48,807 bases of DNA, taken from positions 1-48,807 of the forward strand of contig CABZOW010000005.1 of NCBI GenBank assembly GCA_902527525.1. The letters are read 5' to 3'. Shown here one piece after another: positions 10,575 through 19,490 of this stretch. Position numbers and translations under genes: made by a program. How positions within the stretch are numbered: the stretch's first letter is position 1; every line of letters starts with the position of its first letter. Under the pieces are notes generated by a model. That model had not been told where the DNA came from. It made no database searches and saw only the letters and a list, made by a program, of their open reading frames with translations. Origin of the DNA: an uncultured Alphaproteobacteria bacterium (GTDB lineage Bacteria > Pseudomonadota > Alphaproteobacteria > HIMB59).

Positions 10575-11387
10575 TTATATATTAATGGTTGATTTATAAA
10601 CTAATTCAGCTGGACCTTGAAGATATACTATCTTATCTTGAATTTCTGTTTTTAATCTTGATTGTTCTGTAATTACTTCAATTTTAGAGGATACAATATC
10701 ATTATAGTTTAAAACAAATGCTGTTGCACACGTACCTGAACCACAGGCAAGTGTATGCCCGCCACCTCTTTCCCAAAATAATACTTTGACACTAGATTTA
10801 TTGATTACCTGAACAAAAGTAATATTTGCCTGATCAGGGAAAATTTTATTTTTTACAAGCAAAGGTCCTAGATGATTTAATTTAATTGATACTAAATTTT
10901 TAACTAACACCACACAATGGGGATTGCCAATATTTGCTGTCATTATTTTTACTAATCCAGGTATTTTAATACCTTTAATATGAATAGCTTGGGTGTCCAT
11001 TTTTTTTGATAAAGGTATTTTTTGCCAATCTAAAGTTACTTCTCCAACATTGATTTTGTATTCTTTTTTAGTTTTTTTGCCGTGATGTATAAATTTATGA
11101 CTTTTGATAATTACGTTTTTAATTTTCTTTTCTTCAACTAAAAATTTATAGACACAACGCAGCCCATTTCCACAATTTTTTCCAAGTGAGCCATCTGAAT
11201 TATAAAAAGCAACTTGATGGTATGCTCCAACTTTTTTCAATAAAATCAATTGATCACAGCCTATGCCAAATTGTCTGTCACATAGTTTTTTTATAATTTT
11301 TTTTGATTTTCTAATTAAATCAACGTTTTTATCTATTATTACAAAGTCATTTCCCGCCCCATGAGCTTTCATAAAAGGTATTTTCAT
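10575..11387 (-). CDS. dapF: Diaminopimelate epimerase
   Basis: Interconverts LL- and meso-diaminopimelate for lysine and peptidoglycan synthesis. The catalytic Cys pair is in NCGNGLRC (about residue 72) and ACGSGTCAT (about 216). The N-terminal MKAHGAGNDFVIID and the ANIGNPHCV block are diagnostic. The first motif reads KNCGNGLRC where many alphaproteobacteria have ACGNGTRC; both keep the Cys. Start of the minus-strand operon, divergent from ffh. Confidence 0.96.
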   Translation of the reverse strand: MKIPFMKAHGAGNDFVIIDKNVDLIRKSKKIIKKLCDRQFGIGCDQLILLKKVGAYHQVAFYNSDGSLGKNCGNGLRCVYKFLVEEKKIKNVIIKSHKFIHHGKKTKKEYKINVGEVTLDWQKIPLSKKMDTQAIHIKGIKIPGLVKIMTANIGNPHCVVLVKNLVSIKLNHLGPLLVKNKIFPDQANITFVQVINKSSVKVLFWERGGGHTLACGSGTCATAFVLNYNDIVSSKIEVITEQSRLKTEIQDKIVYLQGPAELVYKSTINI

Positions 11388-11436
11388 AGACCCGCTATAG
11401 TGATATAAAAACTTAACTTAATAAAGAAAAAATTAG

Positions 11437-11469
11437 TCGGCCGATGAGTATCATTCGCCGATTTTTTTT
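11437..11469 (+). terminator. Hairpin plus T8 tract in the ffh leader
   Basis: TCGGC and GCCGA arms enclose an imperfect inner stem with a GTA loop (11437-11461), followed at once by eight T on the plus strand. This has the form of an intrinsic terminator. It stands only 9 bases before the ffh start, with no plus-strand gene upstream for it to terminate (dapF is divergent). An attenuator, a short leader RNA or a 5'-end stabilising hairpin are all possible. Confidence 0.6.
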
Positions 11470-11478
11470 ATTTTTTAG

Positions 11479-12831
11479 ATGCTAGAAAATATAACAAATA
11501 AAATAACTGGAATTTTTCAAGACCTCTCAAATAAAGGAGCCATTACTGAAAAAGATTTAGAGTTAACTTTACGCGAGGTGAGAGTAGCTCTATTAGAAGC
11601 AGATGTTTCTCTAAGAGTATCTAAAGATTTAATTAAAAAAATTCAAGACAAAGCGCTTGGCCAAAAAGTAATTGAAAATGTTCAGCCAGGACAACAAATT
11701 ATTAAAATTGTTAGCGATGAGCTTACAGAAATTCTTGGCACACAAAGCAGTGAACTAAATTTTAAAAATAAACCCTCAATTTTTTTAATGTGTGGTTTGC
11801 AGGGTGCAGGTAAAACAACATCGATAGCGAAGCTTGCCCATTACTGTCAAAATTCTCTCAATAAATCTGTAGCACTAGTATCAACAGACTTAAGAAGACC
11901 CGCAGCGATTGAACAACTACGCATTTTATCTCAGAAAAATAATATTCAATTTATTGAACCAGCTAACCAAAATATAAAAGATATTGTCAATAATGCAATG
12001 GAACAAAGCAATAAACTTTTATCAGATATTCTTATAATCGATACCTCTGGCCGGATCAGTACGGATGAGGAATTACTTTTAGAACTAAAAACTATTCACG
12101 ATATCGCAAAACCACAAGAAAACTTACTTGTATTAGACTCTATGATGGGCCAGCAAGCACTAAGTGTTGTAGAGTCTTTTAACTCCACTGCCCCTCTTAC
12201 GGGATTTATCTTAACAAGACTGGATGCAGACCCAAGGGGAGGAGTTGCCCTCTCAGCAAAATATCAAACAGGTTTGCCTATTCGTTTCTTTGGATCTGGT
12301 GAAAACATTCAAGATTTTGAAGTTTTCCACCCAGAAAGAATTGCTTCAAGAATACTTGGCATGGGAGACGTTGTATCACTAGTTGAAAAGGCACAGAAAG
12401 ACTTTGATGAAAAAGAAATGGAAAGTCTGCAGTCCCAGATGTTGAGTGGGAAATTTAATATGAATGATCTTTTGAAACAATTTTCACAAATGAAAAAGAT
12501 GGGAGGTATGTCTGGACTGATGTCACATATGCCAGGTGTAAGCAAAATTAAAAATATGATGGAAAGTGGAGATTTTGACGATAAAGTTATAGATCATCAA
12601 ATAGCAATTATTTGTTCAATGACTAAAGATGAAAGAGTTGACCCCGACTTACTAAAAGCCTCAAGAAAAAGAAGAATAGCAACTGGGTCTGGAAGACAAG
12701 TACATGAAGTCAATAGGCTTCTCAAACAATTTGAGCAAACTAAAAAACTTATGAAACAAGCTCAAAAACCAGGTTTTGCAAATAAAATTAAAAGTTTATT
12801 AGGCGGAAACCAAATGCCAACGATTGATTAA
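11479..12831 (+). CDS. ffh: Signal recognition particle protein Ffh
   Basis: The SRP54 GTPase that binds signal sequences on the ribosome. The N domain is LREVRVALLEADVSLRV; the G domain has CGLQGAGKTTSIAKLA (G1), DLRRPAAIEQL, IIDTSGRISTDEELL and TRLDADPRGGVAL. The methionine-rich M domain (residues 300-450) contains MGGMSGLMSHMPG and the RNA-binding SRKRRIATGSGR. At 450 residues it is complete. First gene of ffh-rpsP-rimM-trmD-rplS. The 4.5S RNA is not visible in the window. Confidence 0.97.
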   Translation: MLENITNKITGIFQDLSNKGAITEKDLELTLREVRVALLEADVSLRVSKDLIKKIQDKALGQKVIENVQPGQQIIKIVSDELTEILGTQSSELNFKNKPSIFLMCGLQGAGKTTSIAKLAHYCQNSLNKSVALVSTDLRRPAAIEQLRILSQKNNIQFIEPANQNIKDIVNNAMEQSNKLLSDILIIDTSGRISTDEELLLELKTIHDIAKPQENLLVLDSMMGQQALSVVESFNSTAPLTGFILTRLDADPRGGVALSAKYQTGLPIRFFGSGENIQDFEVFHPERIASRILGMGDVVSLVEKAQKDFDEKEMESLQSQMLSGKFNMNDLLKQFSQMKKMGGMSGLMSHMPGVSKIKNMMESGDFDDKVIDHQIAIICSMTKDERVDPDLLKASRKRRIATGSGRQVHEVNRLLKQFEQTKKLMKQAQKPGFANKIKSLLGGNQMPTID

Positions 12832-12849: not shown

Positions 12850-13461
12850 ATGGCGACTAAAATAAGACTAGCAAGAGGGGGTTCAAAGAAAAGACCTTTT
12901 TACAGAATAGTGGTGGCTGATGAAAGAGCACCTAGAGATGGTAATTTCATTGAAAAAATAGGTAACTTTAATCCAATGGTGCCGAAGGACCACAAAGAGA
13001 GAGTTATGCTAAGCAAAGAAAGAGCTGAGCACTGGTTAAAAGTAGGAGCATTACCAACAGAAAGAGTTCAAAAAATTCTTTTTGAATTAGGAATGATGGA
13101 AGCCCCAAAAATAACTGAGAAGACGAAAAAACATTTACCAAAGGCAAAAGCTCAGGAAAGAGTTAAGTCTAAAGAAGAAGCGGCATTAAAAGCAGCTGAG
13201 GATGCAAAAGCTGCTGAAGAAGCGTCAAAAGTAGAAGCAGAAAAACCTGCTGAAGAGACATCCACTGCAGATGAGCAACCCCCTGTTGAAGAAGCTGCAA
13301 CTGAAAAACCAGCTGAACAAGAGGTAAAATCAGAAGAAATACCAGAGCCTGGGGAGAAGAAAGAAGAAGCCCCTGTAATGGAAGAACCTAAAGCAGAGGA
13401 GTTTTCAACCGAGGCTGCTGAAGACAAAACTGACGATAATAAAGAGAAACCTAAAGAATAA
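12850..13461 (+). CDS. rpsP: 30S ribosomal protein S16 with long acidic tail
   Basis: The S16 core is at residues 1-85 ([47 protein letters not shown]). The total of 203 residues is more than twice the bare S16 fold. From about residue 105 the protein is a low-complexity Ala/Glu/Lys/Pro tail ([20 protein letters not shown]). Alphaproteobacterial S16 proteins often have shorter tails of this type. A good Shine-Dalgarno sequence (GGGAGAG) precedes the ATG. Confidence 0.95.
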
Positions 13462-18458: not shown

Positions 18459-19490
18459 TTGGCTTCTTCAAAAAAACCTAAAATTGCTGTCGTCGGAGCG
18501 ACTGGAAATGTTGGAAGAGAGGTCTTAGATATAATCGATGAAAAAGAAATTCAATACTCTGATTTAATCGCTTTAGCTTCATCTCGCTCTAAAGGAAGTA
18601 CAATTGATTATGGAGAAAACAAGTCGGTAGTAGTAGCTGATTTAGCTGAATATGATTTTTCAGATACTGACATAGCTATTTTTTCTCCTGGAGCAAAAGT
18701 ATCTAGTGAGTTTGCTCCTAAGGCAGCTAAACAAGGATGTATAGTTATAGATAATACCTCACACTTTCGAACAGACCCAGATGTCCCCTTAGTGGTTGCT
18801 GAAGTCAATCCAGAGGCGTTAAAAGATTTTAGAAAAAAAAATATTATTGCTAATCCAAACTGCTCAACCATGGGGATGCTAGTTGCAATTAAACCTTTAC
18901 ACGACCATTTTAATGTAAAAAGAATTGTTGTTTCAACTTACCAATCAGTTTCAGGTGCTGGCAAGGAAGCTGCTGATGAATTATTTAATCAAACAAAATC
19001 AATTTATGCTAATGAAGCAGTCGTTAAAGAGAAATTTACTAAACAAATTGCTTTTAATGTTATCCCGCACATTGATGTTTTTTTAGAAGATGGGCAAACT
19101 AAAGAAGAGTGGAAAATGTTCAATGAAACAAAAAAAATACTTGATCAAAACATTGAATTAACAGCAACCTGTGTGCGTGTTCCAGTTTTTGTTTCTCATT
19201 CTTTAGCAGTCAATGTTGAATTTAATAAACCGTATGATGAGGACCAAGTAAGGGAGATTTTTAAAAAATCACCAGGTTTAAAAATGATTGATTATCGCGC
19301 TGATGAAGGATATGTCACCCCTATTGAGTCTGCAGGCTTAGATCCAGTGTATATCAGTAGGATTCGAAGAGATCCTACTATTCCAAATGGTTTAAACTTC
19401 TGGTGCGTTTCTGATAATTTAAGAAAAGGCGCTGCTTTAAATACCGTACAAATTGCAGAAATACTAATTAAAGATTTTTTAAGTTCTTAG
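18459..19490 (+). CDS. asd: Aspartate-semialdehyde dehydrogenase
   Basis: Produces aspartate semialdehyde for lysine/DAP, threonine and methionine. The start codon is TTG one base after leuB; no later start precedes KIAVVGATGNVGREVL. The catalytic Cys is in IIANPNCSTMGML and the His region is RVPVFVSHSLAVNVEF. QSVSGAGKEA and NTSHFRTDPDVPLVVAEVNP are further family blocks. The 343 residues are normal. The 3' end overlaps the convergent pyridoxal-kinase-like gene by 23 bases. Confidence 0.97.
   Translation: MASSKKPKIAVVGATGNVGREVLDIIDEKEIQYSDLIALASSRSKGSTIDYGENKSVVVADLAEYDFSDTDIAIFSPGAKVSSEFAPKAAKQGCIVIDNTSHFRTDPDVPLVVAEVNPEALKDFRKKNIIANPNCSTMGMLVAIKPLHDHFNVKRIVVSTYQSVSGAGKEAADELFNQTKSIYANEAVVKEKFTKQIAFNVIPHIDVFLEDGQTKEEWKMFNETKKILDQNIELTATCVRVPVFVSHSLAVNVEFNKPYDEDQVREIFKKSPGLKMIDYRADEGYVTPIESAGLDPVYISRIRRDPTIPNGLNFWCVSDNLRKGAALNTVQIAEILIKDFLSS

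Follow-up and report, generated by a model that had tools for sequence, protein, structure and literature searches.

What is a terminator-like hairpin doing directly before the start codon of ffh, in a gap between divergent genes where no gene needs to be terminated? How the level of Ffh is set in bacteria is poorly understood, and the locus studied here, which lies in a window (the whole stretch of DNA analysed) of 48,807 nt, raises this question in a compact form. The gene ffh (11479-12831, + strand) encodes the SRP protein of 450 amino acids and is the first of nine same-strand open reading frames, ffh, rpsP, rimM, trmD, rplS, leuC, leuD, leuB and asd, which are separated by intergenic gaps of at most 38 nt and end with asd at 19490; this nine-gene run is as originally predicted, and its gene names were assigned from the protein sequences. 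The start (11387) of the divergent neighbour dapF (10575-11387, - strand) bounds the dapF|ffh gap of 91 nt (11388-11478). The same arrangement of dapF and ffh is found in Pelagibacter ubique (PMC2704228) and S. meliloti (PMC2573895). Within the operon, the rpsP (S16, 12850-13461) and rplS (L19, 14730-15341) frames, of approximately 203 amino acids each, exceed the usual length of these proteins by long C-terminal tails rich in Glu, Ala, Pro and Lys, and it is unusual for two ribosomal proteins encoded in the same operon to have similar tails of low complexity.

The original prediction described a stable stem at 11437-11478 with a T8 run ending 9 nt before the ATG, in a 91-nt divergent gap with no gene to terminate. 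The sequence is as claimed in these respects, but the true stem begins at 11435, two bases having been omitted, and T8 (11462-11469, leaving 9 nt before the ATG at 11479) is only the first part of a longer T8-A-T6 tract (11462-11476, + strand), which adjoins the stem directly and resembles the U tract of an intrinsic terminator. The hairpin (11435-11463, + strand; 29 nt) consists of a 7-bp outer stem, a 1x1 C·C mismatch (11442/11456), a 5-bp inner stem and a GUA triloop, and ends 15 nt before the ffh start codon; the first two T of the tract are able to pair at the stem base. The stability ascribed to it was borne out, with the hairpin alone folding at -12.4 kcal/mol (z -3.86 against shuffles) and the predicted leader (11416-11478) at -18.0 kcal/mol (z -4.57), which none of 200 shuffles equalled; the fold of the whole gap gave z -3.02. 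The 5' part of the predicted leader (11416-11434, + strand), with a predicted start site at approximately 11416, includes an A-rich stretch, AATAAAGAAAAAATT (about 11420-11434), and A:U pairing between this stretch and the U tract appears in predicted folds, though covariation support for the A:U helix was looked for and not found. A simple promoter and terminator scan of the window did not detect the hairpin, presumably because the C·C mismatch interrupts the stem.

The structural reading was sound, but it missed that the hairpin belongs with a leader element already described. Meyer et al. (2009; PMC2704228) reported the ffh motif in the ffh leader of P. ubique and many other alphaproteobacteria as one bulged hairpin with stem covariation and two near-invariant bulge cytosines. 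The motif is without resemblance to 4.5S RNA (PMC2704228) and corresponds to Rfam RF01793 ('ffh sRNA'; typed as an sRNA gene, with a curated cut-off of 35 bits). RF01793 gave no match at the gathering cut-off in the window, none in a search of 301 local bases at E up to 5, and none in the genome to which the window belongs or in 60 genomes of the order, whereas it scored above the cut-off in 30 of 142 genomes of the class. Relatives of ffh were found in 162 of 190 class genomes (E <= 1e-90); the class leaders were gathered by way of the Ffh protein, and the sampling, which leaned to small genomes, is not a census. Outside the order, 36 of 67 ffh leaders showed the strict geometry (7 bp, C·C, 5 bp, a loop of 3-4 nt and at most one non-pair). 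The 36 distinct 29-mers of alignment A1, from other alphaproteobacterial families and with no sequence from this order, were used to build a covariance model, R1. In alignment A1, 11 of 12 pairs covary, 97.2% of cells pair and the two mismatch cytosines are invariant. Searched against both strands of the window with filters off, R1 gave a single match, 11435-11463 on the + strand (27.5 bits, E 2.5e-4); selection of the training hairpins on this geometry favours the match, although the window contributed no sequence to them. R1 also matched every ffh leader tested in the order (22.7-35.1 bits), which among searchable genomes comprises two families, that of the window (f1) and a sister family (f2), and its only match in the 400 kb searched of a complete f1 genome was the ffh leader. 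A genome search with R1 returned no match in the window's own genome, though cmsearch matches the window, and that search was thus too insensitive to indicate absence. The geometry of the window hairpin, 7-1-5-3-5-1-7 with both cytosines, is identical to that of many class members. Because a model trained outside the order matches it together with the f1 and f2 leaders, the window hairpin is, as judged by sequence and structure models, homologous to the ffh motif but diverged from it, and it falls outside the Rfam family in its curated form. The same-geometry ffh leaders L226, L200 and L193 score 21-24 bits with RF01793, below the cut-off, and eight leaders with the hairpin geometry (L191, L193, L198, L200, L204, L205, L223 and L226) are either below the cut-off or unscored, so the Rfam ffh family undercounts its members.

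Relatives of Ffh at 85-99% identity come from marine alphaproteobacteria, represented mostly by single-cell genomes. Within the genus, which consists of HIMB59-type alphaproteobacteria, alignment A2 contains three compensatory pairs (41/69, 46/64 and 47/63) and no broken pair in 96 cells of the hairpin; the RNA structure of the hairpin is thus shown by covariation. Mean pairwise divergence at the third codon positions of dapF and ffh was about 0.48 per site, compared with 0.14 in the hairpin, 0.08 in the T tract (11464-11475), 0.08 in the A-rich stretch before the stem and 0.00 in a promoter-like block, TATAGTGATATAAA, further upstream. The low divergence of these pieces relative to third positions indicates selection on the promoter-like block, the A-rich stretch, the hairpin and the T tract; the spacer between the block and the A-rich stretch diverges by 0.51 per site. 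The hairpin is accordingly real, conserved and, to judge from selection on its sequence, functional. Hairpin and T tract are kept in all f1 leaders examined, including the most diverged (76-78% Ffh identity), whose tail reads CC-T7-A-T4. Loss of the stem in relatives, named beforehand as evidence against the element, was not seen across the genus, where stem and T tract survive with compensatory changes. The hairpins of the sister family are present without a T tract. In the genus member L102, U replaces the 5'-side cytosine of the C·C mismatch. In L102, L103 and L104, the most diverged members of the genus, an ATG inside the hairpin lies in frame with ffh, and annotation programs may for that reason extend ffh upstream into the hairpin.

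Transcription of the operon had been expected either to pass the hairpin or to start after it. The invariant block TATAGTGATATAAA (11396-11409, + strand), with 0 substitutions in the genus, is a candidate core promoter lying upstream of the hairpin, so transcription probably passes the hairpin. It contains a candidate extended -10 for ffh, TGa-TATAAA (TATAAA at 11404-11409), with a weak candidate -35, TTTTCA, 17 nt upstream of TATAAA; we infer that the block serves as the promoter for ffh. A promoter downstream of the hairpin was considered and rejected, as only 15 T-rich nt remain there and none with a plausible -35 was seen. Between the divergent genes, CTATAGTGATATAAA (11395-11409) is conserved throughout the genus. 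Its CTATAG (11395-11400) is its own reverse complement, and this part may serve as the -10 of both the dapF and the ffh promoters. In the leaders L198 and L205, TGTTATAAA is located 16-17 nt before the hairpin.

As for termination, the hairpin and tail of the window scored about 34-40 on a d'Aubenton-Carafa-type scale, which serves for comparison only, and the range for seven independently identified gene-end terminators from the genus was 25-45. All 7 f1 leaders scored were terminator-positive, compared with 0 of 8 f2 leaders; among other alphaproteobacteria, 22 of 58 leaders (38%) were positive, against 7% with random tails from their own leaders. Class leaders have 4.48 T in the 9 nt after the stem where 2.42 are expected, and the class consensus downstream of the hairpin is roughly C-N-TTTT-GNG-TTTGG. 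U-richness after the hairpin is thus a tendency of the family, and a terminator-grade tract turns up repeatedly in it without being general. The terminator-like reading therefore holds for the window, where the score matches real terminators of the genus, but it does not extend to the motif as a whole, since the T tract is lacking in f2 and of terminator grade in a minority of leaders elsewhere. We regard the T tract as having reinforced, in this lineage, a leader hairpin of greater age. Across alphaproteobacterial families (for example in leaders L133, L165, L198 and L205), the ffh hairpin is followed by a conserved U-rich segment that ends in a GUUUGG-like sequence, and termination by itself does not account for the GUUUGG. 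When 400 kb of a complete same-genus genome were scanned with a home-made finder of hairpins followed by T and crude ORF calls, no site other than the ffh leader was convincing among those lying 20 nt or less from a start codon without a same-strand gene end upstream; the one other flagged site (285265-285289) was set aside because it is a bidirectional terminator that overlaps an ORF of doubtful status.

Considering these results, we propose the following scenario, in which the hairpin probably throttles the ffh operon. Transcription would start at approximately 11416 from the TGaTATAAA block and, after about 20 nt, the polymerase would make the C·C-mismatched hairpin and then the U8-A-U6 tract. 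Given a terminator-grade hairpin and U tract, some polymerases should stop, at about 11466-11471, freeing a leader RNA of approximately 50-55 nt, and the remaining polymerases would read into ffh-rpsP-rimM-trmD-rplS-leuCDB-asd, with reduced flow downstream. No antiterminator appeared among the predicted folds, in which the approximately 20 A/U-rich nt before the stem offer no complement to the stem arms. A leader peptide encoded by the 13-codon frame from ATG 11444 was rejected, the frame being broken by changes in T-tract length in L008 and L039; it is Phe/Leu-rich only due to the T run. With neither room for an antiterminator nor a conserved leader peptide, the element is neither a classical riboswitch nor a leader-peptide attenuator, and because a competing antiterminator hairpin does not fit, the setting would probably be constitutive, or adjusted by a putative protein that binds the conserved hairpin. 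Such an attenuator, yielding a terminated leader of about 50-55 nt, is the reading that we favour over the others, with moderate confidence.

The main rival is control of translation or mRNA stability, in favour of which stand the relatives without the T tract and the short distance of 15 nt between hairpin and AUG. The hairpin would then act mainly after transcription, bound by a protein or shielding the 5' end and the ribosome site, and the U tract would serve as ribosome standby for a gene without a Shine-Dalgarno sequence. With its stem ending 15 nt before the ATG in this genus, the hairpin borders on the footprint of a ribosome at the start codon. A Shine-Dalgarno sequence is lacking here, such sequences occur in only about 16% of the genes of a relative, and base pairing of the A-rich leader with the U tract can reach to within 1-2 bases of the AUG; furthermore, f2 and 36 of 58 other leaders retain the hairpin but have no terminator-grade tail. 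However, the T tract directly adjoins the stem and scores with real terminators, 13 or more T within -20 to -4 are uncommon, being present in 3 of 397 genes including ffh, and the extended A:U helix lacks covariation. We regard this explanation as possible but clearly less probable than attenuation. The T-less f2 hairpins and the scores below zero of most class members nevertheless mean that termination is not a universal function of the motif family. The two kinds of control might also be combined in a two-layer switch, with the hairpin and U tract terminating transcription and, in the read-through mRNA, the A-rich leader pairing with the U tract and closing the ffh start. This combination seems rather unlikely; if it were true, a single bound factor might govern the SRP protein and the S16/L19 genes at the level of transcription as well as translation.

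We consider the remaining explanations improbable. That the locus is the source of an independent small RNA with targets in trans, ffh simply lying downstream, accords with the typing of RF01793 as an sRNA gene by Rfam and with the proposal of sm5 of S. meliloti as an sRNA (PMC2573895), yet it is very unlikely, as the hairpin stays directly before ffh across families (15-121 nt) and the approximately 20 A/U-rich nt outside it, part of them hypervariable, leave little for target pairing. An ordinary terminator for incoming transcription, such as antisense read-through of dapF-miaB-ftsY, would be compatible with the lack of a same-strand gene end upstream and with the weak minus-strand T tract that the A-rich stretch provides on the other side; the location of the promoter-like block between the start of dapF and the hairpin, and the homologous hairpins without a terminator tail in f2 and most class leaders make it still harder to accept. 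Least credible is a chance hairpin, or a DNA operator palindrome instead of an RNA element. Regulators can bind inverted repeats too, and T runs are expected in an AT-rich genome, but the R1 match is strand-specific, the C·C mismatch is conserved, many pair types occur per position, and the 400-kb scan gave no similarly convincing hairpin and T run ahead of any other start.

Transcripts from equivalent positions have been reported: the ffh motif was detected in marine small-RNA metatranscriptomes, as stated by Meyer et al. (PMC2704228), who noted that neither transcriptional nor translational regulation of ffh had been described (PMC2704228), and Bartonella likewise yielded an ffh leader RNA (PMC7717549). 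In S. meliloti, sm5, in the gap between dapF and ffh, has a predicted Rho-independent terminator and a microarray signal (PMC2573895), and Sm5 was proposed as an sRNA gene with a predicted length of 108-258 nt (PMC2573895). The present study adds to the known range of the ffh leader motif an order missed by the Rfam model, provides a 12-pair consensus and offers, for at least part of the family, a testable mechanism, premature termination before an operon with S16 and L19.

Compared with terminator-type attenuators, the element differs in that neither an antiterminator alternative nor a conserved leader peptide was found. It resembles intrinsic terminators in its GC-rich stem followed directly by U8 and in a score equal to that of gene-end terminators of the genus, but it precedes a start codon, where there is no gene for it to terminate. 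Relative to Sm5, which was compared by description, the transcript predicted here is shorter (about 50-55 nt versus a predicted 108-258 nt), and Sm5 was proposed as an sRNA gene rather than an attenuator. The closest likeness is to the ffh motif: both are located in the 5' leader of ffh on the same strand, the motif often in a dapF|ffh divergent gap, and both are single bulged hairpins with a covarying stem and two bulge cytosines (C11442 and C11456 in the window). The element differs from the motif in being unscored by the Rfam model, short of its cut-off of 35 bits, in having GGCCGAUGAG..UCAUUCGCC in place of GUCAGCGAG..CGCCCAC, and in abutting a T8-A-T6 tract 15 nt from the ATG; the section on the ffh motif in Meyer et al. 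mentions no terminator (PMC2704228). The ffh motif and a terminated transcript at the same place are thus already known, and what is new is a diverged member with a lineage-specific terminator tail.
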